The notes beneath the pieces were generated by a model. It ran no database searches and had not been told where the DNA came from. It was given only the letters and a program-made list of their open reading frames with translations. From Accumulibacter sp. (lineage in GTDB: Bacteria; Pseudomonadota; Gammaproteobacteria; Burkholderiales; Rhodocyclaceae): a DNA stretch of 32,620 bases. This document shows, piece by piece, positions 8,823 to 32,620 of this stretch. Numbering within the stretch: the first letter of the stretch is position 1; the number at the start of each line of letters is the position of its first letter. The stretch spans positions 1-32,620 of the forward strand of contig NZ_JAMTDQ010000022.1 in assembly GCF_023806635.1 (NCBI RefSeq). The letters run 5' to 3'. The translations under genes were made by a program, and so were the position numbers.

Positions 8823-9077
8823 CGCTTCTCTCCTTGGTCGAATCGGGACGTGCCGGCAAAAGCCGCTGCGGGTGGTCCCTGCGGCACACGCTTCGTCGGC
8901 AGCGGCTGCAGGATAGTCGATATCGGCCGCGCGGCGAGGCATTTTCTGCACCGGTCACGGCGACGCGGCGGTCCTCCGCGGCGCGTGTCCGGGCGCGACG
9001 CCACGGCCAGGCATTCGCCGATCGGCCCGGTTCGGGGTTAAGGTTGACCCTCCGACCGCTCCCGTGCCCGTTTTCCG
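8823..9077. other. Divergent promoter region between two protease genes
   Basis: These 255 bases must hold the start signals for both proteases. Apart from the caspase ribosome binding site (8830-8835) I could not pick a convincing sigma-70 promoter. TTGACC near 9050 resembles a -35 box on the + strand, but no -10 lies at the right distance. Confidence 0.35.
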
Positions 9078-13662: not shown

Positions 13663-13672
13663 GAACTCCACC

Positions 13673-14662: not shown

Positions 14663-14670
14663 ACTTCGCG

Positions 14671-15981: not shown

Positions 15982-15982
15982 T
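15977..15982 (+). promoter_or_regulatory. Possible -10 box (TATAGT) before the BPSS1780-RDD pair
   Basis: TATAGT sits at the end of the DUF58 gene, 88 bases before the next ATG. No good -35 box is found, so it is only a weak hint that the last two membrane-protein genes have their own promoter. Confidence 0.2.
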
Positions 15983-16069
15983 ACGCGCCTGCGGACGGCG
16001 GCGCGACAGCGCCGCGGTGGTGACGACGACGATGGCGGCCATGGCGACGGCCGCGGCGCGGGGGGCGCG

Positions 16070-17556: not shown

Positions 17557-17940
17557 ATTCGCCTCGCGGTCGCCGGCCATCACCGTCGGCGCCGGGCACT
17601 GACCGACGCAGAGGAATCGCGTCACCGAAGCACCGTGCGCGGTCGCCCCTTCCCTGACGGTTCGTTCCCCTCGGGTGCAGGCGTCGTCTGCCGCTGCCCG
17701 GCGGCGCCGAAGGCGGCGCTGCAGCGCTCTGCCGGCAGCATCCCGGGCGCCTGCCATCCGCCGGGGAGGCAGCCTGCCGTCCCCCTTCCTCTCGGCTGTC
17801 CTGCCGGCAGGCCGTGTTTGCGAACTGGCACTGTCCGGGCTTGCGCCGGTACCGTCATCAACCTGTCGGGTTTTTTTACAGTTATACCGTTCCGGCTGAT
17901 GAGGTATTCGCTCATAGTCTGATTTAATGGTCGAGCATCG
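17557..17940. other. Upstream region of the giant gene, no gene supported
   Basis: The first 300 bases are very GC-rich with short palindromes such as CCTGCCGGCAGG, and carry only unconvincing Arg/Ala/Pro-rich frames on both strands. From about 17870 the sequence becomes AT-richer, marked by a run of seven T at 17871-17877. The short arms AACC/GGTT just before that run could form a weak terminator for the RDD operon. This shift in composition marks the control region of the giant gene. Confidence 0.4.
17899..17915. promoter_or_regulatory. Inverted repeat ATGAG-N7-CTCAT, possible operator
   Basis: Perfect 5-base arms flank a 7-base centre (17 bases in total), about 30 bases upstream of the sigma-54-like -24 element. 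The size suits a dimeric regulator. Chance occurrence is possible. Confidence 0.25.
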
Positions 17941-17944
17941 ATTG

Positions 17945-17958
17945 GGCACGGATCTTGC
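17945..17958 (+). promoter_or_regulatory. Candidate sigma-54 (RpoN) promoter of the giant gene
   Basis: The sequence reads GGCACG-GATC-TTGC, matching the sigma-54 consensus TGGCACG-N4-TTGC except for the first T (here G). The key -24 GG (17945-17946) and -12 GC (17957-17958) are exactly 10 bases apart, as required. Transcription would start near 17970, leaving a leader of about 80 bases. No sigma-70 promoter of similar quality is visible. If real, transcription needs an enhancer-binding activator. Confidence 0.6.
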
Positions 17959-18024: not shown

Positions 18025-18035
18025 GTTGGCCTTTT

Positions 18036-18041
18036 AAGGGG
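18036..18041 (+). promoter_or_regulatory. Ribosome binding site of the giant gene
   Basis: AAGGGG lies 7 bases before the ATG at 18049. A GTG at 18046 is in frame but too close, so ATG is preferred. Confidence 0.75.
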
Positions 18042-18048
18042 ATTGGTG

Positions 18049-19251
18049 ATGAAAGTCTTCGGTGAAGAGCGGGTAAATTCCTATTTCTCCAACAGCCAGT
18101 CGGCTCCGGCCATGGCGCCCCTCGCCGGTGGAGGCTACGTCACCACCTGGGTCTCGAACAATCAGGATGGCAGTGTCGAGGGAGTTTACGCCCAGCGGAT
18201 GGATGCCAACGGGGTCGCCATCGGCCCCGAGTTCCGGGTCAATACGACCACCGGCAGCAACCAGACCGACCCGAGGATCGCCGCGCTCTCCGATGGCGGC
18301 TTCGTCATCGTCTGGTCCGACGATGGCGGCGCCGACGGCAGTGGCTGGGGCATCTATGCCCAGCGCTACAGTGCCGGCGGCGTGCCGCAGGGGGGCGAGT
18401 TCCGCGTCAACACGACGACCTACAGCACGCAGTATCAACCCAGCGTGGCAGCCTACACCGGCGGCTTCGTGGTCACCTGGGCCAACGCTGCCGGCAACGT
18501 GGATACCAGCAGTTATGGCGTCTTCGGCACCCGTTTCGACAATGCCGGCAACGTCGTGCAGACGGGTGGGCAGAACGAGTTCCAGGTCAACACCTATACC
18601 ACCAGTCACCAGTGGGAACCTGACGTCGCGGCCTATGCCGACGGCAGCTACGTGGTCGTGTGGCGTTCCGAAGGTCAGGAAGGCGATGGCTATTCGGGTG
18701 TCTACGGACAGCGCTACGCCAGCACGGGCGCCAAGGTCGGTGGCGAATTCCACGTCAACACGTATACGCCGACTTACCAGTTTGCGCCGCGGGTGGCGAC
18801 CCTGTCCGACGGCGGCTTCGTCGTCGTCTGGCAGTCGCGTGACCAGGACGGCGGCAGTGACGGGGTCTACGGCCAGCGCTACGATGCCTCCGGCAATGCC
18901 GCCGGCGGTGAGTTCCGCGTCAACGTCGCGACCGCCAACGACCAGGGCAATCCCGACGTGACCGGCCTGTCCAGTGGCGGCTTCGTCGTCACCTGGTACA
19001 GCTACTTCGTGCCGGCGGAAGGCAGGTATTACGAGATCTACACCCGCGAGTACGACGCCGCCGGGCTGCCGGCCAGCGGCGAGCAGAAAATCAACACCTA
19101 CGACAACGGCAGCAACGCACAGATCCAGCCAGTGGTGGCCGACCTCGGCAACGGCAACTACGTCGTGAGCTGGTCCTCCTACAACCAGGATGGCAGCAAT
19201 TACGGCATCTATCAGCAGATCTTCGGCGACCCGGCCGATTTCAGCCGCCAG
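18049..19251 (+). repeat. Propeller block 1 (seven blades)
   Basis: Blades start at 18064, 18229, 18397, 18577, 18745, 18910 and 19081. Blade 3 is longest (60 aa, with an insert near GGQN). The last blade carries the capping pattern NGNYVVSWSS and GIYQQIFGDPADF, seen at the end of later blocks too. Confidence 0.75.
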
Positions 19252-22200
19252 GCCGATCCGGTTCTGGCGGACTTCAGCGGGACCGTCAGCTTCGGCGAGA
19301 ACCTGGTCAACGCCGGTCTGCAGGTGCTCGATGCGGCGGTCAGTCTGACCGATGCCGACTCGGCGGACTTTGACGGCGGTCGTATCGAGCTGTACTACGT
19401 CAAGGCCGGCGCGGCCGCCGAAGACCAGCTGGGGGTGGTGCATGAGGGCACCGGACCCGGCCAGATCGGCGTCGCCGGTGCCACCGTCAGCTACGGCGGC
19501 ACCCCCATCGGCACCCTCAGCGGCGGCAGCAACGGCGCCAGCCTGATCATCGACCTGAACGCCAGCGCCACCCCGAACGCCGTCGAGGAACTGATCCAGC
19601 GCCTCGGCTACGGCAACAGCAGCGGCAACCCCGCCCTGACGCGCGAGGTGGGCATCCGCGTCTCCGACGGCGACGGCGGTTCGACTTTCGGTGGCATCAT
19701 CACCATCAACCTGACCCGGGAACTGGACGGGACTCCGGCCGCTTACGGCGAGGAGCGGGTCAACACCTACACCACCGACTACCAGCACAATCCCGAAGTG
19801 GCGCGCCTGGCGGGCGGCGGTTACGTGGTGGTGTGGACCTCGCGCAGCCAGGATACCCCCAGCGACGCCGACGGCATCTATGCGCAGCGCTACAACGGCA
19901 GCGGCGTGGCAGTGGGGCCGGAGTTCCGCGTCCCGACCCTGACCGGTGCCAGTCAGGAATACGCCCACGTGGCGGGTCTTTCCGACGGCGGCTTCGTCGT
20001 CACCTGGCAGGACAGCGCGGGCTACGACGGTTCCGGTTCCGGGGTCTTCGGCCAGCGCTACAATGCAGCTGGCGTCGCCCAGGGCGGGCAGTTCGTCCTC
20101 TCGAGCTACACCGCCAACAGTCAGTACCACGACGCCGTGGCCGCCTACAACGGCGGCTTCGCCGCGGTCTGGAGTTCCTACAACCCGGCCGACGGCGGTT
20201 ATCACGACATCTATCTGCGCCGCTTCAACAACGATGGTACGGCGTTGGACGGCAGCGGACTGCTGGTCAGCACCACCCCGGGCGACCCGGCCGACCCCCA
20301 GAACAGTCACCAGTACCTGCCCGACATCGCCACCCTCAACGATGGCGACCTGCTCATCGTCTGGCGGGACGATGGCAGTAACGACGGCAACAGCCATGGT
20401 GTATACGCCCGCCGCTTCGACGTGGGCAGCGGCACGTTCGGCAACACCTTCCTGGTCAACACGCGCACCGACGACGCTCAGTACGAAGCCCGGGTGGCTG
20501 CCCTCAGCGACGGCGGCTATGTCGTCGTCTGGCGCGAGAACAATCAGGACGGCAGCGGCTCGGCGGTGATGGCGCAGCGCTACGCGGCCAATGACGCAAA
20601 GGTCGGGGCGGCCATCCGGGTCAACGAATACACCACCGGCAGCCAGTACGAGCCCGACGTCATCGGCCTGTCGACCGGCGGCTTCGTCGTCAGCTTCTTC
20701 AACGACAACAACGGCCCCGACGGCACGCCGAACAACGTCCACGTCCGCGAATACGACGCCCAGGGCAAACCGGTGGACGGCGACCGGGTGGTCAACACCA
20801 CCACCAGCAACAACCAGCACCAGGCCGCCCTGGCCGACCTGGGCAGCGGCAACTACGTGGTGGTGTGGCGCTCCGACTACCAGGATGGCTCCAACAGCGG
20901 CATCTACCAGCAGTTGTTTGGCGACACAGCCGAACTGCCGCGCTCGGCCAACCCGGATCTCGCCGACTTCACCGGCACCGTCGGCTTCAACGAGAACGCG
21001 GTCAACGCCGGCCTGCAGATCATCGATGAATCGGTCGGACTCACCGACAGCGATTCCGCCAACTTCAACGGCGGCCGGCTCGACCTGTACTACCTCACCG
21101 GGCAGGCGGCCGAGGACCAGCTGGGCGTCGTGCACCAGGGCAGCGGTGCCGGCGAGATCGGCGTCTCCGGCAACACCGTCAGCTATGGTGGCACCGTCAT
21201 CGGCACGATCAGCGGCGGCGGCAACGGTGCGAATCTGCGCATCGACTTCAGCAGCGACGCCGCTACGCCGGATGCGGTGGAGGCCCTGATCCAGCGCCTC
21301 GGCTACGCCAACACCGACTCCAGTCCAAATGCCAGCCGTAGCCTCGGCCTGCGCGTTTCCGACGGCGACGGCGGCAACAGCATCGCCAACGTGCTGACCA
21401 TCAACCTCACCCGGGAACTGGACGGCACCCCAGCTGCCCACGGCGAGGACCGGGTCAATAGCTACACGGCAGATCACCAGCAGAACCCGAACGTCGCCAC
21501 CCTGGCCGACGGCAGCTATGTGGTGACCTGGATCAGCCAGTATCAGGACGGCAGCTCCTGGGGGATTTACGCCCAGCGGTTCAGCGCCAGCGGCGTGGCG
21601 GTGGGGCCCGAATTCAAAGTCAACAGCCTGACCGGCGGCGAGCAGAGCTGGCCGCACGTCGCCGGCCTGTCCGGCGGCGGCTTCGTCATCACCTGGCAGG
21701 ACAGCAACGGCCATGACGGTTCGGGCTGGGGCGTTTATGGCCAGCGCTTCGACGCTACCGGTGCGCCCGCCGGCAGCCAGTTCGTGGTCAACACCGTCAC
21801 CAGCAGCACCCAGTACCACGACGCCGTCGCCGCCTACAGCGGCGGCTTCGCCACTGTCTGGTCGTCCACCCAGAGTGGCGGAAGTAGCCAGGACATCTAC
21901 GTGCAGCGCTGGGACAATTCCGGCAACAGGATCGGGCCCGAGGTCCGGGTCAGCACCAACCCCGGCAGCGGCACCGCCCAGGCCGGCAACCAGTACGTAC
22001 CCGAGGTGGCCGCCCAAGCCAACGGCAACCTGTTCGTCGTGTGGACCGACGACGGCGGCAACGATGGCGCCGCCGACGGCGTCTATGGTCGCTTCTACCA
22101 TGCCGGCACGACCACCTGGAGCGACACCGTCCTGGTGAACACCACCACCTCCGGCTCGCAGGGCAACGGTGCCTCCGGTGACTACGAGCCGAACGTGGCG

Positions 22201-25200
22201 GCGCTCGCCGACGGCGGCTTCGTCGTCGTCTGGCCCTCCAACGCCAACGACGGCAGCGGCTGGGCGGTCATGGGCCAGCGCTTCACTGCCGGCGGCACCA
22301 AGGTCGGCGGCGAGTTTCAGGTCAATGAGTTCAGCAGTGGCAACCAGTACCAGGTCGACGTCATCGGCCTGTCTACCGGCGGTTTCGTCGTCGGCTTCTA
22401 TAACGACAACCCGGAACCCACCGGCACCTACTACGATGCCTACATCCGCGAGTTCGACGCCAGCGGCATGGCGGTGGACGGCGACCGCAAGGTCAACACC
22501 TACAACGGCAGCAACCACTACCAGGGCGAACCCGCCCTCGCGGATCTCGGCAACGGCAACTACGTGGTCACCTGGACCAGTCAGTACCAGGATGGCTCGG
22601 GTTCCAGCTACGGCATCTACCAGCAGCTCTTCGGCGCCACCGCCGAACTGCCCCGGCAGGCGAACCCGGACCTGGCCGATTTCACCGGCACGGCGACCTT
22701 CGACGAGAACGCGGTCAACGCCGGCCTGCAGGTCATCGACTCCGCCGTCAGCCTGACCGACAGCGATTCCGCCAACTTCAACGGCGGCCGCCTGGACCTC
22801 TACTATCTCGCCGGGCAGGCGACGGAAGACCAGCTCGGCGTCGTCCATCAGGGCACCGACGCCGGCCAGATCGGCGTCGCGGGCAACACCGTGAGCTATG
22901 GCGGTGTCGCGATCGGCACGCTCAGCGGCGGCAGCAACGGCAGCAACCTGCGCATCGATTTCAACAGCGATGCCGCGACCCCCGAGGCGGTCGAGGCGCT
23001 GATCCAGCGGCTCGGCTACGGCAACACGGACGTCAGCCCGAACGCCAGCCGCAGCCTGGGACTGCGCGTCTCCGACGGCGACGGCGGCAGCAGCATCGCC
23101 AACGTCCTCGACATCGTGGTCAACGACCAGGTCGACGGCACGCCCAAGGCCCACGGTGAGGACGGGCGCCTCAACACCCACGTCAGCGGCAACCAGTACA
23201 CCGAGGGCATCGCACGGCTCGCCAGTGGCGGTTACGTCACCATCTGGCGCAGCGACGACGCCCAGGACGGCAGCGGCAGCGGCATCTACGGCCAGCGCTT
23301 CAGCGCCAGCGGCGTCGCCGTCGGCCCGGAGTTCCGCGTCAACACGGCGACGACCGGTGATCAGCTCGAGGCCAGCGTCGCTGCGCTGTCGACCGGTGGC
23401 TTCGTCGTCGCCTGGACCAACCGCGCGAGCAATGTCGACGGCAGTTCGTACGGCGTCTACGCACAGCGCTACAACGCCAGCGGCGTCGCCGTCGGCCCCG
23501 AGTTCCGCGTCAATACCGTCACCACCAACGACCAGGCACAGCCGAGCGTCGCCGCGCACGGCAGCGGATTCATCGTCACTTGGTACTCCAACGGCCAGGA
23601 CGGCAGCGGTTACGGCGTGTACGCGCAACGCTACCTCAACGATGGCAGTGCCGTCGGTCCTGAGTTCCGCGTCAACACCACGACCAGCGGCAACCAGTAC
23701 GAGCCGGCAGTCGCCGCACGCAATGACGGGTCCTTCGTCGTCGCCTGGCGCTCGGACGGTCAGGACGGCAGCGGTGCAGGCATAGTCACGCAGCGCTTCG
23801 ACAGCAGCGGCACCAGGCTTGGTCCCGAGGCCGTCGTCAATGCCAACACCGGCGGCAATCAGTACGAGACGCGGCTGGCGATGCTCGACGGCGGCGGCTA
23901 CGTCGTCGTCTGGCGCGACGACAGCCAGGACGGCAGCGGAGCGGCCGTCATGGCGCAGCGCTACGACGCCGGCGGCGTCGCACAGGGCGGGAATTTCCGG
24001 GTCAACGAGTTCACCAGCGGCAATCAGTACCTGTCCAGCGTCACCGGGCTGTCCGGCGGCGGCTTCGTCGTCGCCTTCTACAACGACAATACGGGCCCCG
24101 ACGGCACGTCCGCCAACGTCTATCTGCGCGAATACGATGCAGCCGGCAATGCGCTCGATGGCGAACGCCTGGTCAACACCTTCACCTCGAGCACGCAAGC
24201 CTATCCGGCCGTTGCCGACCTCGGCAACGGCAACTACGTCGTCACCTGGGCCTCCTATACGCAGGACGGCAGTCTGTATGGCATGTATCAGCAACTGTTC
24301 GGTGATCCCGCCGAACTGCAGCGGCAGGCCAACCCGGTGCTCGACGACCTCGTAACCAGCCGCACGCTCGGTGCCGCCCAGGCGGTCACGGCGCAGTTCA
24401 TCGATGCCGACGTGCAGGTTGCGGACAGCGATTCTGCCAACTTCGACGGCGGCAGCCTCTGGGTCTACTTCAGCTCCGGTCAGCTGGCGCAGGATGTGCT
24501 GGCCGTCAACGACGAAGGCACGGGCACCGGCCAGATCGGCGTATCCGGCAGCGACATCAGCTACGCCGGCACGGTGATCGGTACCTGGGCCGGCGGCAGC
24601 GCCGGCGCCCCGCTGGTCGTCAGCTTCAACGCCAGCGCGACAGCGGCGGCAGTCCGTCACCTGGTCGAGAACATCACCTATCGCTACAACGACGTCACCG
24701 CTCCCAACGGCAGTCGCAGCGTGGCTTTCCGCCTGTTCGACGGCGACGGTGGCGCCTCCGAGCCGGTCATCGCCACGCTCACCATCCAGGCGGCCAACCC
24801 GACCGCCGCGCTCAGCCTCACCGATCTGGAAGCCGTCGTCACCCTCGGCGAAGCCGCCGCCCAGCTCGGCGCGGTGCTGGACGACAACGTTGCCGTCACG
24901 CAGGGCGCCAATCCGGTCACGACGTTGACCGTGTCCTACCTTTCCAGCACCGGTCGCGCCGACGACCAACTCGGCATCCGTCATCAGGGAACGAGCGCCG
25001 GTCAGGTGGGCGTGTCCGGCAGCGACATCAGCTACCAAGGCGTCGTCATCGGCAGCATCAACGCCGCCGACACCGGCGCCAACGGCGACCAGCTGGTGGT
25101 CAACTTCAATGCCTCGGTGACCGCGCAGGCGGTGGAGCGGGTGATCGAGAACCTGCGCTACCAGACCACCAGCGACGGCCCTCTGGCCAGCCGCAGCATC

Positions 25201-28200
25201 CAGGTCCAGATCCGGGATTCGGCCAGCGCCACGGCGTCGCAGAACCTGGTGATCGACATCACCCCCGAGGACGAGGGCGTGCAACCGCTGACCAGCGACG
25301 AGCAGGTGAACACCTACATGCCCGGCGACCAGTACTACCCGCGTGTGGTGGGTCTGGAAGGCCCCAACGCCGGCAGCTACGTGGTGGTCTGGCGCTCGCC
25401 CACCGAGGACGGCAGCGGCACCGGCGTCTTCGCGCAGCGCTACAATGCCCAGGGCGTGGAGGTGGGCACCGAGTTCCAGGTCAACACCTATGCCAGCAAC
25501 GACCAGGCCGAGCCCATGGTCGCCAGCCTGGCCAACGGCGGCTTCGTCGTCGTCTGGCGCAGCGAGGGCCAGGACGGTTCTTCGGGCGGCGTCTACGCGC
25601 AGCGCTACGACCTGAATGGCGCCCCGGCGGGAAGCGAATTCCTCGTCTCCACGGCCGTCACGCAATACGACCAGACGCATCCGACCGCCCTTGGTCTCGC
25701 CAATGGCAACTTCGTCATCGCCTGGGCGGACCAGTATCGGGACACCAACAACTACGGCAGCTTCGCCAGACTCTACGCGGCTGATGGCACGCCCGTCGGC
25801 GCGGATTTCCAGCTCAACAGCTACCTGCCGAACCAGCAGTACACGCCCTACCTGGCGGCGCTGAAGGACGACTCCGCAACCGCTGGAACGGACGAGAGCG
25901 GCTTCATCGCCGTCTGGCAGTCCAGCGGCCAGGACGGTTCCGGCTGGGGTGTCTATGCGCAGCGTTTCGACCTCACCGGCACCAGGGTGGGCAGCGAATT
26001 CCGCGTCAACACGAACACCAGCAGCAACCAGGCCAACCCCGACGTCGCGGTACTGGCCAACAGCCGCATCGTCGTTGTCTGGCACGATGACTCCAACAGC
26101 AGCGTCCGCGGCCAGCTCTACACCGCGGCCGGGGTGACTGTCGGCGGCGAATTCACCGTCAGCACCAGCGACTTCGACTCCTCCTACGGCCAGTGGCCGC
26201 ACGTGACCGCCCTGCAGGGTGGCGGTTTCGTCGTCAGCTGGGACGGACATGCGAGCCCCAGCGACAGTGGCTACGGAGTCTACGCGCAGGAGTTCGACGC
26301 CAGCGGCAACAAGGTCGACGGCCCCTTCTCGCTGAACAGCAACACCGCCAACAATCAGCACTACCCGGATGTCGCCGCCCTCACCGGCAACAACTTCGTC
26401 GCCGTCTGGATGAGCAACTACCAGGAAACCGATGGCAACAGCAGCCACGGAGTCTTCCAGCGGGTGTTCGGCACGCCGGGCAGCGTCACCCGGCAGGCGA
26501 ATCCCGAACTGCTGGACCTCGAGACCGCCGTCAGCTTCAACGAGAACGACGTCAACGCCGCTGCCCAGCTTGTCGATCCGGGCGTTCGCGTCGTTGATGG
26601 CGACTCGACCAATTTCGACGGCGGTCGTCTGGTGGTGAGCGTCATCACCGGCTATGGCGCCGCCCAGGCCTTCGACCCCGCCGCCCACCAACAGGACCAC
26701 TTCAGCGTGCGTAACCAGGGCAGCGGCGCCGGCCAGGTGGGTCTCGCCGGCAGCACCGTGAGCTACGGTGGCACGGCCATCGGCAGCGTGCTGAGCAACG
26801 GCCAGAACGGCGTCGATCTGGTGCTGCAGTTCAACGTCAGCGCCACCGCCGAGGCGGTCGAAGCGGTCATCGAGAACCTCACCTACCGCAACAGCTCGAG
26901 CAACCCGACCGCCAGCCGCACGGTATCGATCGTCGTCTCGGACGGCGACGGTGGCCAGAGCGCACCGCGCACCATGACCATCGACGTCGCTGCCCAGACC
27001 GACGGCGCCGTGGCGCTGCTGAGTCAGGAACAGCGCGTCAACACCTACACCACGAGTGACCAGATCGAACCGATCATCGCCGCCCTGCAGGGCGGCAACG
27101 CCGGTCAGTACGTGGTGGTCTGGGAATCCAACGGCCAGGACAGCGACGGCTGGGGCGTGTTCGCCCAGCGCTTCGACGCCAACGGATCGGCGATCGGCCC
27201 CGAGTTCCAGGCTAACAGCTACACGCCTGATAGCCAGCACAGCCACTCGCTGCTCGGCGTGGCCGGGCTGTCCACCGGGGGCTTCGTCGTTACCTGGGAC
27301 TCCAATAACCAGGATGGCTCCTACTACGGTGTCTACGCGCAGCGCTATGGCGCCGACGGCCAGCCGGTAGGCGGCGAGTTCCTGGTCAACACCGCCACCA
27401 ACTACCACCACCAGTTCCAGGCGCAGGTGCTCGGCCTGAACGGCGGCGCCTTCGTCATCGCCTACACCGACTACAGCAACGCCGACGGCAACGACTACGG
27501 TGTGCGGGTGCAGCACTACGACGCCGGCGGCGTCGCCCAGGGTGCGCCGTTCACCGTCAACACCTATGTTTCTGGCAACCAGTCCTTCCCGCAGTTGGCC
27601 AGGCTCGCCGACGGCGGCTACGTGGTGGTGTGGCACTCCAATGGCCAGGACGGTGACGGCTGGAGCGTCCAGGCCCGGCTGATGAATGCCAACGGTGCGG
27701 TCCGCTCCGCCGAGTTCCAGGTCAACACCTACAACATCAGCGATCAGTCCAACCCTGACGTGGCGGTGTTGAGCAATGGCGACTTCGTGGTCAGTTGGGT
27801 CAGCAACAACGCCGGTCTCGGCGGCTGGTCGATCATGGCGCAGCGCTACACCGCGGCAGGCGTCAAGATCGGCGGCGAGGTGCTGGTCAACGACGGCCCC
27901 ACTGCGCCCAGCAATGGCGACACGTACAGCCGCATCAGCGCGCTCGGCAATGGCGGCTACGTGGTGGCCTGGAGCGACAGTTCCGGCGTCAGCGGACACG
28001 ACAGCTTTGCGCAGCAGTTCGACGCCGCCGGCAACAAGGTCGACGCGCCGCTGCTGTTGAACAGCACGACCAGCAGCACGCAGTACCGCCCCGACGTGGC
28101 GGGCCTCGGCGGTGACCGCTGGGTGGCGGCGTGGCAGTCCCACGGTCAGGATGCCAACAACACCTACGGCATCTACCAGAACCTGTTCGGCCCGGCCGGC

Positions 28201-31200
28201 TCGCTCAGCAAGTCCGCTGCCCCGGTCATCAGCGACCTGGCAGCCAGCGTCAGCGTGCTGGAGAACGACGCCAATCTGCCGGCAGGTGTCCTCCTTGACC
28301 CGGCCGTCAGCGTCAACGACAGCGATTCCGCCGACTTCGCCGGCGGCCGCCTGATCGTGTCGGTGATCTCCGGTTACAACAGTCTGGGGTCCGACCTGTC
28401 GCAGAACCTGCCGACGCAGGACCACTTCAGCGTGCGCAACCAGGGCAGCGGCGCTGGCCAGGTCGGCTTCAACGCCGGCACGGGGGTCGTCAGCTACGGC
28501 GGTACGGCGATCGGCGCCATTGTCTCCGGCTTCAACGGCCAGAACGGCGTCGACCTGGTGATCGAGTTCACCGCCAACGCCAACGCCGACAAGGTGGAAG
28601 CGGTCATCGAGAACCTGACCTACCGCAACAGCTCCAGCGACCCGGTGCCAAGCCGCCTGGTCAGCGTCACCGTGAGCGACGGCGACGGCACGACCTCCGA
28701 GCCGCGCACCGTGCAGATCGACGTCACGCCGCAGGCTGACGCCCCCATCCCGCTGTTCAGCGCCGAGCAGGTCAACACCTACACCACCAGCACGCAAAGC
28801 GCGCCCGCCATGGCCAGGCTGGCGGACGGCGGCTACGTCACCCTGTGGCAGTCCAATGGCCAGGACGGCTGGGATTACGGCATCTTCGGCCAGCGCTTCG
28901 CAGCCGACGGCACGCGCGTCGGCAACGAGTTCCGGGTGAGCGACTTCACCCCCTACAACCAGACCGAGGTGGCGGTGGCCGGCCTCATGGATGGCGGCTT
29001 CGTCGCCGTTTTCCGAGGCCAGTACCGTGATGCCTCGGGCGATGGCCTCATCGGCCAGCGCTTCGACGACGACGGCCTCAAGGTGGGGTCCGAGTTCCTG
29101 GTCAACACCACGGCCGATGGCACCCAGCACCAGCCGGCGATCACCGCCCTGGCCGATGGCGGCTTCGCCGTCGCCTGGTATTCCAGCGGCGTGCGCGACG
29201 GCCGCTACTACGACGTCTTCTTCCAGCGCTTCGACGCTGCCGGTGTGGCAGCCGGATCGGAAACCCGGGCCAACACCAGCACGGGTTACGAAGACGCCTA
29301 CCAGTCGGAACCCGCCGTCATCCAGCTCGCCAGTGGCGACATCCTGGTGGCGTGGCGCGGCGAACAGCAGGACGGCTCCAGTTCCGGCGTCTATGCGCAG
29401 CGCTTCAGCGCCAGTACCGGCGCCAAGCTGGGCAGCGAGTTCCAGCTCAACACCTACACCAGCGACTACCAGTACGCCCCGAGCATCACCGCCACGGCCA
29501 ACGGGTTCGTCGCCGTGTGGGTCTCGCGCGGCCAGGACAGTTCCGTCGACGGTATCTATGCGCGCCTGTTCGATCAGGCGGGCAGCCCGGTGACGGGCGA
29601 GTTCCGCGTCAACGACACCTACTACAACTGGCAGAATGAGCCCCAGGTGGCCACCCTGGCCAATGGCGGCTTCGTCGTGACCTGGTACGACAACAGCAGC
29701 GGCCACCGGATCCTGGCCCAGCAGTACGACGCGCTGGGCAACCGGGTGGACGGCGAGCTGCAGCTCAACGGTCCGGGCACCACCAGCGACCAGGAGCCGG
29801 CCGTGGTGGCCTTGGCCAATGGCAGCTTCGTCGTCAGCTGGTGGGGCTACTACGACGCCAGCGACAGCGGCATCTTCCAGCGCATCGTCGGCAACCCGGC
29901 CGACTTCCCGCGCCAGACCGCGCCGCAGATCGTCGATCTGGTCTCCAGCGTCACGTTCATGGAGAACCTGATCAACGACACGCCGCAGCTCATCGACGCG
30001 GGTGTCGGGCTGATCGATCCGGATTCGAGCAACTTCGCCGGTGGTCGCCTCGACGTGAGCTATGTCACGCCCTACGGCAACGCCAATCAGTTCGACATCC
30101 CCGGCATCAACGCCCAGGACCAGCTCGGCATTCGCAACGAGGGCACAGGGGTCGAGCAGATCGGCGTTTCTGGGAACCAGGTCACCTTCAACTTCGGCAC
30201 CGGCGCCGTGGTCATCGGTACGATCTTGTCGGATGGCGTCAACGGCAAGCCGCTGACGGTGTTGTTCAACGCCAACGCCACGCCTGACGCGGCGGAAGCG
30301 CTGATCGAGAACCTGACCTACGCCAACCCGCTGTCCAACCCCGAGCCGAGCCGCACCGTCTCGCTGAGCCTGTCGGATGGCGACGGCGGCGTGACGCCGC
30401 CGCGGGCGATCACCATCAACATCACCGCCCAGCCGGATGGCGCCTCGCTGTATGGCGCCGAGAAGGTGGTGAACAGCACAACCGGAGGCACGCAGGAAAA
30501 TCCGTCCATCGCCTATCTGTCGAACGGCAACTATGTCGTGGTGTTCACCGACACCAACGGCCAGGACACCAGCGGCTACGGGGTGTTCGCCCGGGTCTAC
30601 GACAGCAACGACAATCCGCTGGGCAGCCAGTTCCAGGTCAACACCACAACCGCCAGCACCCAGTACCAGCCCACGGTCGTCGCGCTGCAGGGCGGTGGCT
30701 TCACCGTGGCCTGGGCGGGATACAACCAGATTGCTGGTAACACCGGCTACGACGTCGTCGGCCGCACCTTCGACAACGGCGGCACCGCCACCAGCGCCGA
30801 GTTCGCCATCAACCAGAACGTGGCCGGCGAAGTGATCTACGAGCAGTCGATGCCCAATCTCGCCGCGCTGCACAACGGCGGCTTCGTGGCGGTGTGGTAT
30901 GGCTATTACGAGCAGGCCAGCGCCCGTTACCAAGATATCTATGCCCAGCGTTTCGACGCGGCCGGCGTTAAGGAAGGCGCCCAATTCCGCGTCAACACCA
31001 GCACCGGTTTCGAGAGCAGCTACCAGGACAGCCCGCAGGCGGCCACGCTCGCCGATGGTCGCTATGTGGTGGTGTGGCGTTCCAACGACCAGGACGGCAG
31101 CAGCGCCGGCGTCTACGGCCAGCGCTTCAACGCCGACGGCACGAAGGACGGCAGCGAATTCCGCGCCAACACCTACACCGCCAACGGCCAGTACCAACAG

Positions 31201-32620
31201 GACGTGGCGGCGCTGAACGACGGTGGTTACGTCGTGGTCTGGGGTTCCGACAGCAACCAGGACACCAGCGGCTGGGGGGTCTATGGCCAGCGTTTCGACA
31301 CCAACGGCAATCCCGTCGGCGCCGAGTTCCGCGTCAACTACACCGTCAGCAGCAACCAGTACCTGCCGGCCGTGGCCGGGCTGGCCAACGGTGGCTTCGT
31401 CGTCAGCTGGAGCAATGGCGATGAACTCCTGTTCCAGCAATACGATGCCGCGGGCCGCAAGGTCGACAGCGAGCAGCAGGTCAACCCCGACGCGAACTAC
31501 GGGTACACGGCGGACTCCGACCTGGTCGGCACGCCCGACGGCGGCTTCATCCTCACCTGGGGCGGCTACAACCAGGGCAACAGCACCCACGATGTCTTCC
31601 TGCAGCGCTACAGCAACCAGGCGCCACAGGTGCAGGATGTCAACGTGGTGGGCCCGGAAGACGCGGCGATCATCCTGAGCGACGATCTGTTCGCCTCCGG
31701 CTTCTACGATGCCGAGGGACAGACCCTGGCAGCGATCAAGATCATCACCTTGCCGGCGTCCGGCATCCTCAAGCTCGACGGTGTCGCGGTCACTGCCGGA
31801 CAGGTCATCAGTGTGGCCGAACTGGCCGCCGACAAGCTGACCTACCAGGGCAACCCGAACTTCTACGGATCCGACCAGTTCCGCTGGAACGGCAGCGATG
31901 GCAACGTCTTCGCCACTGCCTCGGTGTTCACCAACATCACCGTCAACAACGTCAACGACGGCCCGGCGCTGGAAGCCGGCGCCGGCCAGACGGCCAATGA
32001 AGGTACCTCATTCGGCCACAACATCTTGATCGGCGATCCCGATCTGTCGGACGTTCATCTGGTGACGGTGAGCTGGGTGGGCAGCGGCGGCCAGACCGGC
32101 GGCTACAGCTTCAGCACCGGCTCCGGCAACCCCTCCATCGGGCTGACCCTGCCCGATGACGGCAGCTACACCGTGACCGTGACCGCCAACGACCAGCAGG
32201 GCCAGGCCAACAGCATCGAGACCGACAGCTTCACGGTGACGGTGAACAACGTGGCGCCGACGCTGCCGTACATGAGTGGCAACAACACGGTCGAACAGGG
32301 CCTGGTCTATACGCTCGACCTGAGTGGGCCGAGCAACTTCGGGCCAGTGTACGATCCCGGCACCGACACGGTGACCGAATACCACATCAACTGGGGCGAC
32401 GGCACCGCCGTCGAGGTCATCCCGGCGGCGTCCCTGCCGGCGAACGGGCAGGTCACCCACACCTATGCCGCGCCGGGTACGCCGACCATCGCTGTCGCGG
32501 TGGTCGACGAGGACGGCACCCACGCCAATGCGGGCACCAAGAGCATCACGGTGACGCCGCCGGCCGAAGTCATCGTCGTCGATGCCGGCGTCGATGCCAG
32601 CGTCAATGAAGGTACGCTGT
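18049..32620 (+). CDS. Giant secreted-type repeat protein: eight predicted 7-bladed beta-propellers, cadherin-like and PKD-like domains (3' end outside window)
   Basis: The frame is open from ATG to the window edge, at least 4857 residues. Eight blocks of seven repeats of about 55 aa alternate with beta-rich linker domains. They are followed by a cadherin-like domain (31618-31965) and PKD-like domains. The repeat consensus is EF-VNT-T--Q--P-VA-L-DGGFVVVW, then SNGQDGSG-GVYAQR and D-A-G---G, with four likely strands. The protein is rich in Asp, Gly, Asn, Ser and Thr and appears almost free of Cys and Lys, as in type I-secreted adhesins. Residue 6 already belongs to the first blade, so there is no signal peptide; secretion would need a C-terminal signal beyond the window. 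Base composition matches the neighbours. A likely role is matrix, adhesion or biofilm; RTX repeats are not seen yet. Confidence 0.95.
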   Translation, partial: MKVFGEERVNSYFSNSQSAPAMAPLAGGGYVTTWVSNNQDGSVEGVYAQRMDANGVAIGPEFRVNTTTGSNQTDPRIAALSDGGFVIVWSDDGGADGSGWGIYAQRYSAGGVPQGGEFRVNTTTYSTQYQPSVAAYTGGFVVTWANAAGNVDTSSYGVFGTRFDNAGNVVQTGGQNEFQVNTYTTSHQWEPDVAAYADGSYVVVWRSEGQEGDGYSGVYGQRYASTGAKVGGEFHVNTYTPTYQFAPRVATLSDGGFVVVWQSRDQDGGSDGVYGQRYDASGNAAGGEFRVNVATANDQGNPDVTGLSSGGFVVTWYSYFVPAEGRYYEIYTREYDAAGLPASGEQKINTYDNGSNAQIQPVVADLGNGNYVVSWSSYNQDGSNYGIYQQIFGDPADFSRQADPVLADFSGTVSFGENLVNAGLQVLDAAVSLTDADSADFDGGRIELYYVKAGAAAEDQLGVVHEGTGPGQIGVAGATVSYGGTPIGTLSGGSNGASLIIDLNASATPNAVEELIQRLGYGNSSGNPALTREVGIRVSDGDGGSTFGGIITINLTRELDGTPAAYGEERVNTYTTDYQHNPEVARLAGGGYVVVWTSRSQDTPSDADGIYAQRYNGSGVAVGPEFRVPTLTGASQEYAHVAGLSDGGFVVTWQDSAGYDGSGSGVFGQRYNAAGVAQGGQFVLSSYTANSQYHDAVAAYNGGFAAVWSSYNPADGGYHDIYLRRFNNDGTALDGSGLLVSTTPGDPADPQNSHQYLPDIATLNDGDLLIVWRDDGSNDGNSHGVYARRFDVGSGTFGNTFLVNTRTDDAQYEARVAALSDGGYVVVWRENNQDGSGSAVMAQRYAANDAKVGAAIRVNEYTTGSQYEPDVIGLSTGGFVVSFFNDNNGPDGTPNNVHVREYDAQGKPVDGDRVVNTTTSNNQHQAALADLGSGNYVVVWRSDYQDGSNSGIYQQLFGDTAELPRSANPDLADFTGTVGFNENAVNAGLQIIDESVGLTDSDSANFNGGRLDLYYLTGQAAEDQLGVVHQGSGAGEIGVSGNTVSYGGTVIGTISGGGNGANLRIDFSSDAATPDAVEALIQRLGYANTDSSPNASRSLGLRVSDGDGGNSIANVLTINLTRELDGTPAAHGEDRVNSYTADHQQNPNVATLADGSYVVTWISQYQDGSSWGIYAQRFSASGVAVGPEFKVNSLTGGEQSWPHVAGLSGGGFVITWQDSNGHDGSGWGVYGQRFDATGAPAGSQFVVNTVTSSTQYHDAVAAYSGGFATVWSSTQSGGSSQDIYVQRWDNSGNRIGPEVRVSTNPGSGTAQAGNQYVPEVAAQANGNLFVVWTDDGGNDGAADGVYGRFYHAGTTTWSDTVLVNTTTSGSQGNGASGDYEPNVAALADGGFVVVWPSNANDGSGWAVMGQRFTAGGTKVGGEFQVNEFSSGNQYQVDVIGLSTGGFVVGFYNDNPEPTGTYYDAYIREFDASGMAVDGDRKVNTYNGSNHYQGEPALADLGNGNYVVTWTSQYQDGSGSSYGIYQQLFGATAELPRQANPDLADFTGTATFDENAVNAGLQVIDSAVSLTDSDSANFNGGRLDLYYLAGQATEDQLGVVHQGTDAGQIGVAGNTVSYGGVAIGTLSGGSNGSNLRIDFNSDAATPEAVEALIQRLGYGNTDVSPNASRSLGLRVSDGDGGSSIANVLDIVVNDQVDGTPKAHGEDGRLNTHVSGNQYTEGIARLASGGYVTIWRSDDAQDGSGSGIYGQRFSASGVAVGPEFRVNTATTGDQLEASVAALSTGGFVVAWTNRASNVDGSSYGVYAQRYNASGVAVGPEFRVNTVTTNDQAQPSVAAHGSGFIVTWYSNGQDGSGYGVYAQRYLNDGSAVGPEFRVNTTTSGNQYEPAVAARNDGSFVVAWRSDGQDGSGAGIVTQRFDSSGTRLGPEAVVNANTGGNQYETRLAMLDGGGYVVVWRDDSQDGSGAAVMAQRYDAGGVAQGGNFRVNEFTSGNQYLSSVTGLSGGGFVVAFYNDNTGPDGTSANVYLREYDAAGNALDGERLVNTFTSSTQAYPAVADLGNGNYVVTWASYTQDGSLYGMYQQLFGDPAELQRQANPVLDDLVTSRTLGAAQAVTAQFIDADVQVADSDSANFDGGSLWVYFSSGQLAQDVLAVNDEGTGTGQIGVSGSDISYAGTVIGTWAGGSAGAPLVVSFNASATAAAVRHLVENITYRYNDVTAPNGSRSVAFRLFDGDGGASEPVIATLTIQAANPTAALSLTDLEAVVTLGEAAAQLGAVLDDNVAVTQGANPVTTLTVSYLSSTGRADDQLGIRHQGTSAGQVGVSGSDISYQGVVIGSINAADTGANGDQLVVNFNASVTAQAVERVIENLRYQTTSDGPLASRSIQVQIRDSASATASQNLVIDITPEDEGVQPLTSDEQVNTYMPGDQYYPRVVGLEGPNAGSYVVVWRSPTEDGSGTGVFAQRYNAQGVEVGTEFQVNTYASNDQAEPMVASLANGGFVVVWRSEGQDGSSGGVYAQRYDLNGAPAGSEFLVSTAVTQYDQTHPTALGLANGNFVIAWADQYRDTNNYGSFARLYAADGTPVGADFQLNSYLPNQQYTPYLAALKDDSATAGTDESGFIAVWQSSGQDGSGWGVYAQRFDLTGTRVGSEFRVNTNTSSNQANPDVAVLANSRIVVVWHDDSNSSVRGQLYTAAGVTVGGEFTVSTSDFDSSYGQWPHVTALQGGGFVVSWDGHASPSDSGYGVYAQEFDASGNKVDGPFSLNSNTANNQHYPDVAALTGNNFVAVWMSNYQETDGNSSHGVFQRVFGTPGSVTRQANPELLDLETAVSFNENDVNAAAQLVDPGVRVVDGDSTNFDGGRLVVSVITGYGAAQAFDPAAHQQDHFSVRNQGSGAGQVGLAGSTVSYGGTAIGSVLSNGQNGVDLVLQFNVSATAEAVEAVIENLTYRNSSSNPTASRTVSIVVSDGDGGQSAPRTMTIDVAAQTDGAVALLSQEQRVNTYTTSDQIEPIIAALQGGNAGQYVVVWESNGQDSDGWGVFAQRFDANGSAIGPEFQANSYTPDSQHSHSLLGVAGLSTGGFVVTWDSNNQDGSYYGVYAQRYGADGQPVGGEFLVNTATNYHHQFQAQVLGLNGGAFVIAYTDYSNADGNDYGVRVQHYDAGGVAQGAPFTVNTYVSGNQSFPQLARLADGGYVVVWHSNGQDGDGWSVQARLMNANGAVRSAEFQVNTYNISDQSNPDVAVLSNGDFVVSWVSNNAGLGGWSIMAQRYTAAGVKIGGEVLVNDGPTAPSNGDTYSRISALGNGGYVVAWSDSSGVSGHDSFAQQFDAAGNKVDAPLLLNSTTSSTQYRPDVAGLGGDRWVAAWQSHGQDANNTYGIYQNLFGPAGSLSKSAAPVISDLAASVSVLENDANLPAGVLLDPAVSVNDSDSADFAGGRLIVSVISGYNSLGSDLSQNLPTQDHFSVRNQGSGAGQVGFNAGTGVVSYGGTAIGAIVSGFNGQNGVDLVIEFTANANADKVEAVIENLTYRNSSSDPVPSRLVSVTVSDGDGTTSEPRTVQIDVTPQADAPIPLFSAEQVNTYTTSTQSAPAMARLADGGYVTLWQSNGQDGWDYGIFGQRFAADGTRVGNEFRVSDFTPYNQTEVAVAGLMDGGFVAVFRGQYRDASGDGLIGQRFDDDGLKVGSEFLVNTTADGTQHQPAITALADGGFAVAWYSSGVRDGRYYDVFFQRFDAAGVAAGSETRANTSTGYEDAYQSEPAVIQLASGDILVAWRGEQQDGSSSGVYAQRFSASTGAKLGSEFQLNTYTSDYQYAPSITATANGFVAVWVSRGQDSSVDGIYARLFDQAGSPVTGEFRVNDTYYNWQNEPQVATLANGGFVVTWYDNSSGHRILAQQYDALGNRVDGELQLNGPGTTSDQEPAVVALANGSFVVSWWGYYDASDSGIFQRIVGNPADFPRQTAPQIVDLVSSVTFMENLINDTPQLIDAGVGLIDPDSSNFAGGRLDVSYVTPYGNANQFDIPGINAQDQLGIRNEGTGVEQIGVSGNQVTFNFGTGAVVIGTILSDGVNGKPLTVLFNANATPDAAEALIENLTYANPLSNPEPSRTVSLSLSDGDGGVTPPRAITINITAQPDGASLYGAEKVVNSTTGGTQENPSIAYLSNGNYVVVFTDTNGQDTSGYGVFARVYDSNDNPLGSQFQVNTTTASTQYQPTVVALQGGGFTVAWAGYNQIAGNTGYDVVGRTFDNGGTATSAEFAINQNVAGEVIYEQSMPNLAALHNGGFVAVWYGYYEQASARYQDIYAQRFDAAGVKEGAQFRVNTSTGFESSYQDSPQAATLADGRYVVVWRSNDQDGSSAGVYGQRFNADGTKDGSEFRANTYTANGQYQQDVAALNDGGYVVVWGSDSNQDTSGWGVYGQRFDTNGNPVGAEFRVNYTVSSNQYLPAVAGLANGGFVVSWSNGDELLFQQYDAAGRKVDSEQQVNPDANYGYTADSDLVGTPDGGFILTWGGYNQGNSTHDVFLQRYSNQAPQVQDVNVVGPEDAAIILSDDLFASGFYDAEGQTLAAIKIITLPASGILKLDGVAVTAGQVISVAELAADKLTYQGNPNFYGSDQFRWNGSDGNVFATASVFTNITVNNVNDGPALEAGAGQTANEGTSFGHNILIGDPDLSDVHLVTVSWVGSGGQTGGYSFSTGSGNPSIGLTLPDDGSYTVTVTANDQQGQANSIETDSFTVTVNNVAPTLPYMSGNNTVEQGLVYTLDLSGPSNFGPVYDPGTDTVTEYHINWGDGTAVEVIPAASLPANGQVTHTYAAPGTPTIAVAVVDEDGTHANAGTKSITVTPPAEVIVVDAGVDASVNEGTL
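19252..19749 (+). other. Linker domain 1 (166 aa)
   Basis: Key segments are SLTDADSADFDGGRIELYY, EDQLGVVHEGTGPGQIGV, a VSYGG strand, VEELIQRLGYGN and the closing VSDGDGG. The pattern resembles the cadherin-like beta-sandwich units of large bacterial adhesins, with acidic clusters that could bind calcium. I cannot name the family. Confidence 0.65.
19750..20946 (+). repeat. Propeller block 2 (seven blades)
   Basis: Blades start at 19750, 19921, 20089, 20260, 20446, 20611 and 20782. Blade 4 has an extended first loop (TTPGDPADPQNSHQY). Blades 5 (AVMAQRY) and 6 (VSFFNDN, VREYDA) have close counterparts at the same places in blocks 3 and 4. Confidence 0.75.
20947..21444 (+). other. Linker domain 2 (166 aa)
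   Basis: It is the same length as linkers 1 and 3, with LTDSDSANFNGGRLDLYYL, EDQLGVVHQGSGAGEIGV, VEALIQRLGYANT and VSDGDGG. It is closest to linker 3. Confidence 0.65.
21445..22659 (+). repeat. Propeller block 3 (seven blades)
   Basis: Blades start at 21445, 21610, 21778, 21940, 22126, 22312 and 22483. At 405 residues it is the longest block, because the turns of blades 4 and 5 carry Gly/Ser-rich insertions. Blade 6 again has the VGFYNDN and IREFDA variant. Confidence 0.75.
22660..23157 (+). other. Linker domain 3 (166 aa)
   Basis: It is nearly a copy of linker 2 in pattern: SLTDSDSANFNGGRLDLYYL, EDQLGVVHQGTDAGQIGV, VEALIQRLGYGNT and VSDGDGG. Confidence 0.65.
23158..24327 (+). repeat. Propeller block 4 (seven blades)
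   Basis: Blades start at 23158, 23329, 23500, 23662, 23827, 23992 and 24163. This is the most regular block. The DNA at 23305-23342 and 23476-23513 is identical except for one base, with an offset of 171 bases (one blade), which points to recent duplication or gene conversion. Confidence 0.75.
24328..24798 (+). other. Linker domain 4a (about 157 aa)
   Basis: This divergent linker has VADSDSANFDGGSLWVYF, GTGTGQIGVSGSDISYAG, RHLVENITYRYND and FDGDGG. It is directly followed by a second linker domain, unlike elsewhere in the protein. Confidence 0.6.
24799..25296 (+). other. Linker domain 4b (about 166 aa)
   Basis: The second, tandem linker lacks the DSDSANF motif at its start. It keeps DDQLGIRHQGTSAGQVGV, SGSDISYQG, VERVIENLRYQT and a degenerate RDSASA in place of the SDGDGG ending. 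It shares SGSDISY with 4a, which suggests a local duplication that then decayed. Confidence 0.6.
25297..26496 (+). repeat. Propeller block 5 (seven blades)
   Basis: Blades start at 25297, 25471, 25636, 25804, 25996, 26149 and 26323. Blade 4 carries an insertion (DDSATAGTDESG) before its central strand, and blade 5 is short (51 aa). The capping blade ends GVFQRVFGTPGSVTRQ. Confidence 0.75.
26497..27027 (+). other. Linker domain 5 (177 aa)
   Basis: This is the first of the longer linker type shared by 5, 6 and 7. It has an added VITGYGAAQAF segment before QQDHFSVRNQGSGAGQVGL, then VEAVIENLTYRNSSSNP and VSDGDGG. Confidence 0.65.
27028..28215 (+). repeat. Propeller block 6 (seven blades)
   Basis: Blades start at 27028, 27202, 27376, 27547, 27712, 27877 and 28048. 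Several blades lose the usual QDGSG turn (for example SNADGNDYGV and SNNAGLGGWSI). The capping blade reads TYGIYQNLFGPAGSLSKS. Confidence 0.75.
28216..28764 (+). other. Linker domain 6 (183 aa)
   Basis: This long type has VNDSDSADFAGGRLIVSVI, TQDHFSVRNQGSGAGQVGF, VEAVIENLTYRNSSSDP and VSDGDGT. Its closest relative is linker 5. Confidence 0.65.
28765..29916 (+). repeat. Propeller block 7 (seven blades)
   Basis: Blades start at 28765, 28927, 29092, 29260, 29437, 29599 and 29755. At 384 residues it is the shortest block. Blade 6 lacks the QDG turn (YDNSSGHRILAQQYDA), and the capping blade ends GIFQRIVGNPADFPRQ. Confidence 0.75.
29917..30459 (+). other. Linker domain 7 (181 aa)
   Basis: This long type has LIDPDSSNFAGGRLDVSYV, an inserted TPYGNANQFDIPGINA loop, QDQLGIRNEGTGVEQIGV, EALIENLTYANP and LSDGDGG. 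It mixes features of the early and late linker types. Confidence 0.65.
30460..31617 (+). repeat. Propeller block 8 (seven blades)
   Basis: Blades start at 30460, 30628, 30799, 30982, 31156, 31324 and 31471. The last blade is atypical (TPDGGFILTWGGYNQGNS, then DVFLQRYSNQ) and lacks the capping GxxxLF signature. No linker of the usual type follows. Confidence 0.72.
31618..31965 (+). other. Cadherin-like domain within the giant protein
   Basis: About 116 residues follow the pattern of bacterial cadherin-like repeats: PQVQDVNVVGPEDAAIILS, GILKLDGVAVTAGQVIS, ADKLTYQGNPNFYGSDQFRW and the terminal VNNVNDGP. Such domains are calcium-binding beta-sandwiches common in type I-secreted adhesins. Confidence 0.7.
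31966..32620 (+). other. PKD-like / Ig-like domains at the right edge
   Basis: Two units are visible. The first (to about 32265) reads ANEGTSF, GDPDLSDVHLVTVSW, LPDDGSYTVTVTANDQQG and TVTVNNVAP. The second has YHINWGDGTAVEVIPA, VTHTYAAPGT and VAVVDEDGTHAN, the classic PKD WGDG and HTY pattern. A third begins (VDAGVDASVNEGT) and is cut off. Confidence 0.75.

Follow-up and report, generated by a model that had tools for sequence, protein, structure and literature searches.

A giant protein of an Accumulibacter sp. with eight predicted seven-bladed beta-propellers and a promoter resembling those of PEP-CTERM genes

The giant gene and its repeat array

The window analysed here is a stretch of 32,620 nucleotides from a contig of an Accumulibacter sp., one of 119 contigs of a 4.47 Mb genome. 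An open frame without a stop codon runs from a TTG at 18043 to the end of the window (4,859 codons). The probable start codon is the ATG at 18049, which has the Shine-Dalgarno sequence AAGGGGA (18036..18042, + strand) six bases on its 5' side. From this ATG the giant frame occupies 18049..32620 on the + strand, and its protein starts with MKVFGEERVN. The original prediction, which was made by eye from the sequence, had placed the start at the same ATG and had described a single polypeptide of more than 4800 residues, in agreement with the frame found here. Counted from the preceding stop codon across the whole contig, the frame has 4,899 codons and ends with the window, which means that the contig ends at 32,620 and that the gene is incomplete. 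This truncation, the promoter and the downstream partner in relatives, both described below, were absent from the original prediction.

The part of the protein that is seen contains no cysteine and no RTX nonapeptide, and has a net charge of -314. No hydrophobic N-terminal signal was found by eye in this protein or in its Thauera sp. 2A1 homologue, and the first blade of the array begins at residue 6 from ATG 18049, or residue 8 in the frame as translated. An antisense open frame of 4,518 codons lies opposite the giant on the minus strand (18034-31590). Long frames antisense to the giant were also present in relatives, and high GC content and codon bias are the most likely reason for the antisense frame.

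Genes on the 5' side code for an RDD protein, a MoxR-type ATPase and a SpoIIM-like protein, together with a core cluster including lepA, rnc, era, recO and pdxJ. The SpoIIM-like, MoxR-type AAA and RDD genes (10027-17556) resemble one functional group. A caspase-like (Peptidase_C14) protein is encoded on the minus strand at 8031-8951, near a trypsin-like one at 9078-9809.

An iterated repeat profile detected 56 repeat copies in the protein, the lowest of which scored 40.1 bits. In 20 shuffled proteins used as controls, the best score was 2.6 bits and no copy exceeded 20 bits. The scores of the real copies are inflated because the profile was trained on these 56 copies, and all four profile rounds gave 56 copies over 4 bits. 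It had been claimed from reading the frame that 56 copies of a repeat of about 55 aa fall into eight blocks of seven; the profile recovered the same number and the same grouping, with none in the shuffles, and its matched units were 50-65 aa long. Chance or low complexity as the source of the repeats was ruled out by the 20 shuffles. The consensus of the 56 blades is EFrVNTyTs..Qy.P.VAaLadGGFVVvW.S..QDGSgyGVYaQRFdA.G..vGgE. Tandem Repeats Finder reported only a 12-bp array at the 3' end, because the DNA of the blades is too diverged to be matched.

All eight blocks were delimited with the repeat profile, lie on the + strand and have seven blades each. Propellers 1 and 2, as we call the first two blocks, occupy 18064..19251 and 19750..20946, and propellers 3 and 4 occupy 21445..22656 and 23161..24327. 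In the second half, propellers 5 and 6 are at 25297..26499 and 27028..28218, followed by propeller 7 (28762..29907) and propeller 8 (30460..31638), which cluster with propellers 7 and 8, respectively, of other giants. The first spacer domain (19252..19749, + strand) has about 165 aa and no Pfam match over the cut-off. A double spacer of about 321-323 aa (24328..25296, + strand) splits the array 4 + 4, and the spacers other than this one have 162-182 aa. Behind the array, the start of an extender region (31639..32619, + strand) consists of a tandem-95-like stretch and then PKD domains, and ends at the contig end. With 27.7 bits, the PKD_4 match in Pfam just exceeded its cut-off of 27, and the tandem-95 match in NCBIfam scored 25.1 bits, under its cut-off of 90.

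Predicted fold, family membership and constancy of seven

Block four was modelled alone by AlphaFold2 from a 57-row alignment, with a pLDDT of 92.9 and a pTM of 0.93. The model has seven repeats of four strands each, of which the fourth strand is short in repeats 5 and 6. The chain opens with the VN strand, residues 4-5 being in the strand state, and the last repeat gives three strands, a pattern that matches velcro closure. When propellers 3 and 4 were modelled together with the spacer between them, two propellers were obtained (pLDDT 88.8, pTM 0.71), suggesting that the domains are confident and their relative placement less so. The spacer was predicted as a beta-rich domain with a pLDDT of about 92. 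These models of block four and of two neighbouring blocks bear out the propeller fold that had been guessed from the repeat count: the prediction gave a propeller rather than an open solenoid or beta-helix. A free-growing solenoid or beta-helix was ruled out by the near-constant seven together with the AlphaFold2 model. That each block is a seven-bladed beta-propeller, with a ring that would be closed by a velcro strand, is well supported by prediction.

A Foldseek search of the PDB returned 461 chains at E <=0.001, headed by Dfer_1899 (5hx0), a rhamnose-glucuronate lyase and sialidases. The best 50 of the 461, which include sialidases, a lyase and arabinanases, scored TM 0.37-0.64 at 7-14% identity. 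The viral library gave a match to a predicted NHL-repeat protein, with a TM-score of 0.80 of the query. We take these matches of block four to be proteins with propeller folds. A profile search of PDB sequences with the block gave four matches, the best with an E-value of 0.25.

The blade repeat had no name in the libraries searched, as the original prediction had suspected. Apart from PKD and CopC, nothing in Pfam or NCBIfam exceeded its cut-off for the window protein. The CopC match, over the Pfam cut-off and also seen in 33 of 57 blocks, was rejected as spurious as it covers 29-50 residues within one blade. Of the three families proposed for comparison (Delta-60, FG-GAP and integrin-type propellers), none fitted when the Pfam and NCBIfam check was run. 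The delta-60 repeat (TIGR02608) matched one of 57 blocks (E 0.0075) and was not among the seven NCBIfam matches of the window protein; FG-GAP or VCBS appeared neither among its five Pfam matches nor among the 25 of 37 block families listed. Where the calcium loop DxDxDG of VCBS, FG-GAP and integrin repeats lies between strands A and B, the blade reads L.DGGF. The Asp-box (BNR) motif S-X-D-X-G-X-T-W, which occupies the loop joining strands C and D in the parts of PMC2716378 and PMC8023676 that define it, is absent from the 56-blade consensus; in the block-four model, strands two and three of the repeat flank the conserved DG of the blade. Among named families, the PDIAV_lipo (NF053835) and LIC12048 (NF038383) lipoproteins are probably the closest to the blade, judged from matches at E <=0.01 in 24 and 12 of 57 blocks, respectively. 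The whole window protein scored 26.3 bits against PDIAV_lipo, whose curated cut-off is 90, and had no match to LIC12048. Weak block matches were also obtained to Glyco_hydro_43 (4 of 57) and BNR_4 (2 of 57).

Seven blades were counted in 107 of 128 uncut blocks with a mean blade score >=30 in the fetched records, and in 112 of 167 distinct uncut blocks when the score cut was dropped, the 39 blocks below the cut including five sevens. The tally covers 109 records, among them many related sequences as well as the blocks of the window itself, so the blocks are not independent; the well-scoring seven-blade blocks come from 50 records. The 21 well-scoring blocks with another number had one (two blocks), two (four), three (three), four (two), five (two), six (four), eight (two) or 14 blades (two). 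Three of them are in L020, two each in L028, L047, L067 and L093, and one apiece in L029, L046, L068, L081, L083, L091, L101, L102, L107 and L109. Nine non-seven loci were inspected by eye. Blades were weak or absent in L046, L068, L079 and L102, L029 ends abruptly, L083 is interrupted, six blades were visible in L107, and L081 and L091, which are distant homologues, were apparently true eight-bladed. L020 and L028 are distributed over several frames, and L067 has an internal stop.

Eight blocks of seven were found in all five Zoogloea-Thauera-type eight-propeller proteins (the window's and four further ones) and also in an eight-propeller protein on a Rhodobacteraceae plasmid (L148). The double spacer stands behind propeller four in all six. 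Another genome, G408, which was examined after the block tally, has blocks of 1 (cut), 6, 7 and 7 blades, a double spacer, and then 6, 7, 7 and 7. The gap behind each of its six-blade blocks is about 50 aa longer than most, and the profile may have missed one blade there. Single-propeller proteins with seven blades were found in Bradyrhizobium, Salipiger, Microvirga, Rhizobium and Jannaschia. A 4,178-aa frame in G337 (C1:954333-966867, L157) has 49 contiguous blades without spacer domains. The start-to-start step at every seventh blade is 74-76 residues there (6 of 6), and the full step pattern is common to units 1-2 and 5-7, with units 3 and 4 deviating. These 49 blades read as seven runs of seven, i.e. 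seven propellers without spacers. In G150 (C1:1918895-1924703, L158), six blades were detected in each of five near-identical tandem units of 363 aa, which have space for a seventh; the array would be either a recent amplification or an assembly feature. A giant on a Pantoea agglomerans plasmid (L047, 12687-24851) has two runs of 14 blades and adjoins TolC, ABC and HlyD genes; each run would fit two propellers without a spacer.

We concluded from these comparisons of sequences that seven is the rule within the giant's family, not in every distant relative. Free variation of the blade number among homologues, which would have spoken against closed propellers, was not seen, given the 107 of 128 blocks with seven and the 49-blade homologue. 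The closest named block relatives in the scan were from Zoogloea, Thauera and a betaproteobacterium, with a best identity of 60%, and the family is patchy, being present in 5 of the 31 nearest genomes. No relative was matched in 50,697 phage records. In the search for relatives, 19 Pantoea records were matched. A frame of 26,117 aa in G128 was discarded as an artefact of a long stretch of unread bases.

Blades at the same position in different blocks are more alike (42.6% identity) than other pairs across blocks (36.3%), and the best out-of-block match is at the same position for 33 of the 56 blades, where chance gives 8. A tree of propellers places the propellers 7 of different species together, and likewise the propellers 8, with more mixing among propellers 1-4. 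Recent identities are between whole propellers: in G034 the distance is zero between propellers 2 and 3 and also between 5 and 6, and in G032 propellers 5 and 6 are at a distance of about 0.01, although assembly may account for part of this identity in draft genomes. As far as alignments can tell, the recent copying units are whole seven-bladed propellers. A survey describes new propellers as continuously amplified from single blades (PMC9218822, in part), and the passages on WRAP and recently amplified propellers in PMC9218822 and PMC6805158 give a case in which a single chain folds 14 near-identical blades into two seven-bladed propellers. The amplification unit is thus a single blade in the WRAP-type proteins of these passages and would be a whole propeller in the giant family. 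Since propellers number one, six, seven or eight in a chain and blades stay near seven, a change of copy number can be followed in this family at the level of whole domains.

Promoter of the PEP-CTERM type and the downstream partner

A PrsR-type enhancer of motif 1 (TGTCGGGTTTTTTTACA, 17864..17880, + strand), an exact TGTCG-N6-TTTACA, was found upstream of the giant. A sigma-54 promoter of the form GG-N10-GC (GGCACGGATCTTGC, 17945..17958, + strand) lies downstream, with 64 bases between it and the enhancer and 90 bases to the ATG. In the proteobacterial PEP-CTERM genes studied by Haft and colleagues, a 17-nt motif ending in TTTACA is followed after a mean spacer of 62.8 nt by a sigma-54 motif, which lies about 71 nt from the start; a few further sites stand before other genes, according to the relevant part of the paper (PMC1569441). 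Our pattern was derived from the giant's site and the partner genes, and was compared with motif 1 of PMC1569441 afterwards. At <=1 mismatch it matched twice in the window against 0.09 expected. The window's genome has 18 exact sites and none of the reversed pattern; a PEP-CTERM frame follows 11 of the 18, and a sigma-54-like site lies within 140 bases of 9. Of the 18 sites (L165-L182), seven, the giant's included, have no PEP-CTERM frame downstream by pattern. Genes other than PEP-CTERM genes may be among the members of the regulon.

The sigma-54 site by itself is within chance in the window (4 found against 7.17 expected at <=2 mismatches), and the giant's counts because it is paired with motif 1 and its position is conserved in 12 loci. 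With a consensus fixed beforehand (<=3 mismatches, 350 bp), a sigma-54 site was found in 9 of 12 giants against 6.6% of random windows. The pattern GGYAY-N5-WTGC occurs within 130 bp of the start at all 12 giant loci, the control frequencies being 0.7% for random windows and 4.8% for low-GC windows; it was drawn after viewing the alignment of these loci, some of which are closely related. Motif 1 is exact in six of the 12 giants and has one mismatch in five and two in one. Five of six partner genes, that of G031 included, have an exact motif 1 together with a sigma-54 site by a looser pattern. PrsR was over the cut-off in five of the six genomes, including the window's, the exception being G031, which has giants with the promoter. 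An exosortase was found in five of the six, the window's over the cut-off, and none was found in G002 (87% complete). No sigma-54 site was present within 350 bp of the assumed starts in 12 relatives from Bradyrhizobium, other alphaproteobacteria and Pantoea, which suggests that the link to this promoter belongs to the Zoogloea-Thauera-type lineage. By its sequence and spacing, the giant's promoter fits the PrsK/PrsR/sigma-54 (PEP-CTERM) regulon, as do those of 11 relatives, and a giant without a family name is now tied to this regulon.

The 3' end missing from the window was sought in relatives. The Thauera sp. 2A1 homologue has a frame of 7,144 codons to the stop. Its final 1,853 aa contain 11 PKD stretches, and the protein has a C-terminal domain of about 220 aa; Pfam matched essentially PKD in this tail. 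The end of this full protein has no PEP-CTERM tail. The C-terminal domain is present in 4 of the 6 genomes, and in the class 2 of 274 gave no more than a weak match; it was found in no plasmid record and had no match in the window's genome. In G032 and G033, propellers and the 3' end are on the same contig (with a frame change ahead of the giant's end in G033), and the product of the next gene in both, about 200 aa long, apparently has a Sec signal and ends in a PEP-CTERM tail. In three other cases (G034:C27, G002:C105 and G002:C101), the C-terminal domain ends a contig-edge frame without propellers, and a PEP-CTERM gene is again next (3 of 3); these frames would belong to giants.

The five PEP-CTERM partners are a single homologous set, and the PEP-CTERM model matched every one of them. 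Four are weakly like the flocculation protein PepA, below the cut-off where scored and partly by the tail alone. In G031, a member of the set lies 178 bases from the contig start, which fits the pairing and proves nothing. The window's genome has a weak match to the partner profile elsewhere (1.5e-7) and no clear member. A VPLPA-CTERM protein just downstream in Rhodovulum was not counted, as blastp found no similarity to the Thauera-type partners.

Exosortase substrates have a Sec signal and a PEP-CTERM tail; no Sec signal was seen by eye in the window giant, and the one homologue read to its stop codon, that of Thauera sp. 2A1, lacks the tail. The giant shares with the PepA/PEP-CTERM-exosortase systems, as portrayed in parts of PMC1569441 and PMC9850573, the type of promoter, a genome with exosortase and PrsR, and floc-forming relatives. 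The giant therefore looks like a companion of the PEP-CTERM system, not a substrate.

Proposed role and its alternatives

We consider it somewhat probable that the giant is a secreted multivalent matrix protein or adhesin of flocs or biofilm, regulated by PrsK/PrsR and sigma-54, whose propellers bind exopolysaccharide. Its N-terminal array would be eight closed seven-bladed propellers joined like beads on a string by beta-rich spacers, behind which cadherin-like and PKD extenders and, in relatives, a C-terminal end domain would follow. The PrsK/PrsR two-component system and sigma-54 would turn on the giant along with the exported PEP-CTERM proteins, and the small neighbouring PEP-CTERM protein of relatives would probably be its anchor or partner. 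Eight propellers would offer repeated sites for exopolysaccharide, and one molecule could then cross-link a large number of polymer chains or cells. What we infer here is the secretion of the giant, its ligand, its function, its regulation in vivo and the role of the partner.

To our knowledge, how PEP-CTERM proteins retain exopolysaccharide on floc-forming cells is an open question. In Aquincola tertiaricarbonis, RpoN1 was required for flocculation, not for polymer production, and over-expression of PepA stopped polymer release in an rpoN1 mutant; further work on regulation is called for, in the portion of the report that deals with it (PMC9850573). The propeller of the Vibrio cholerae matrix proteins Bap1 and RbmC binds matrix polysaccharide, and loss of the velcro strand left Bap1 adhesion-defective, according to the corresponding part of PMC10102183. 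Analogy with PepA/RpoN1 flocculation and with the Bap1/RbmC propeller is what points to the giant as a multivalent binder of polymer, produced when the PEP-CTERM regulon is active. Bap1 and RbmC are biofilm matrix proteins whose velcro-closed propeller binds exopolysaccharide, a role like the one proposed for the giant's propellers, but they are described there with one eight-bladed propeller, no array and no PEP-CTERM link (PMC10102183, in part), and the likeness is one of function alone, without a sequence comparison. BapP of Pseudoalteromonas tunicata is a large biofilm adhesin with an N-terminal propeller, then Ig-like and cadherin-like repeats, and a suggested type I secretion as inferred for the giant. 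Its single propeller is predicted to be five-bladed, however, and the pertinent passages of PMC12153261 give it a Sec signal peptide and no array.

The ectodomain of LRP2/megalin, an extracellular giant, resembles the array in having many beta-propellers per chain, with low Foldseek TM-scores (0.04-0.20) and no sequence relation found. It is eukaryotic, with six-bladed YWTD propellers and EGF spacers. No multi-propeller bacterial giant of this kind was found described in the open-access literature, most subscription journals lying outside that scope. As far as we searched, propellers and giant matrix proteins are known and the eight-propeller array and its regulon are undescribed; the bacterial biofilm proteins with propellers in the literature found, as far as their sources detail them, have one propeller each. 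The giant is a direct candidate, open to testing, for a missing exopolysaccharide cross-linker of floc-forming cells.

More tentatively, the giant and its partner may form an undescribed two-gene scaffold, in which a non-Sec eight-propeller giant is made under PrsK/PrsR and sigma-54 along with an exosortase-anchored PEP-CTERM protein, is displayed on this partner and acts as a multivalent cross-linker of floc exopolysaccharide, with whole propellers duplicated or replaced in a conserved 4 + 4 array and blades locked at seven. This fuller version is possible but rather doubtful; if true, it would supply the cross-linker that the PEP-CTERM field has lacked.

Export is the weakest step of the explanation. 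In a different reading, the giant is an RTX adhesin in the manner of LapA, secreted by a type I system and tethered to the outer membrane, with propellers that act as host- or surface-binding heads rather than as cross-linkers of exopolysaccharide. RTX nonapeptides were found in propeller proteins of Salipiger, Microvirga, Rhizobium, Jannaschia and Pseudooceanicola and in the eight-propeller protein of strain SC52. These RTX-tailed relatives, and the Pantoea giant beside its type I system, point to type I secretion, which is also the probable route in the reading that we prefer. A transporter of the LssB/LapB type was over the cut-off in four of the six genomes, the window's included, and in neither Thauera genome. 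No type I secretion genes were found in the 20 upstream frames of the window, nor in the few downstream frames in Thauera. RTX repeats were absent from the window part, from the full Thauera protein and from the Bradyrhizobium and Rhodovulum propeller proteins. With its first blade at residue 6, the giant has no space for an N-terminal retention module, and the protein encoded next to it in relatives is of the exosortase type and does not belong to a Lap system. We therefore regard the LapA-like adhesin as unlikely.

An array of enzymes, each propeller being a glycoside hydrolase, lyase or sialidase-like unit that trims exopolysaccharide, is suggested by the solved neighbours, which among the best 50 of 461 are mostly sialidases together with the rhamnose-glucuronate lyase and arabinanases, and by the few Glyco_hydro_43 and BNR_4 matches. 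TM-scores and identities as low as those of these 50 speak for a shared fold, not a shared function, and the ten invariant columns of the 57 blocks are scattered glycines, leucines, aspartates and glutamines, as for structural positions; we hold this to be quite improbable. A pure structural spacer, in which the propellers bind nothing and only make the chain larger and longer, as extender repeats do in other giant adhesins, would agree with the ready gain and loss of whole propellers, as in the six- and eight-propeller forms and the near-identical neighbours. Filler would not need propellers 7 and 8 to hold their separate identity across species, and dedicated extender domains are already present behind the array, making this improbable, if slightly less so than the enzymes. 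A secreted multivalent binder of exopolysaccharide remains the reading that we favour.

Propeller proteins were also seen near polysaccharide genes on alphaproteobacterial plasmids (L045, L151 and L152), and those of L045 and L151 are near 'calcium-binding' proteins as well.
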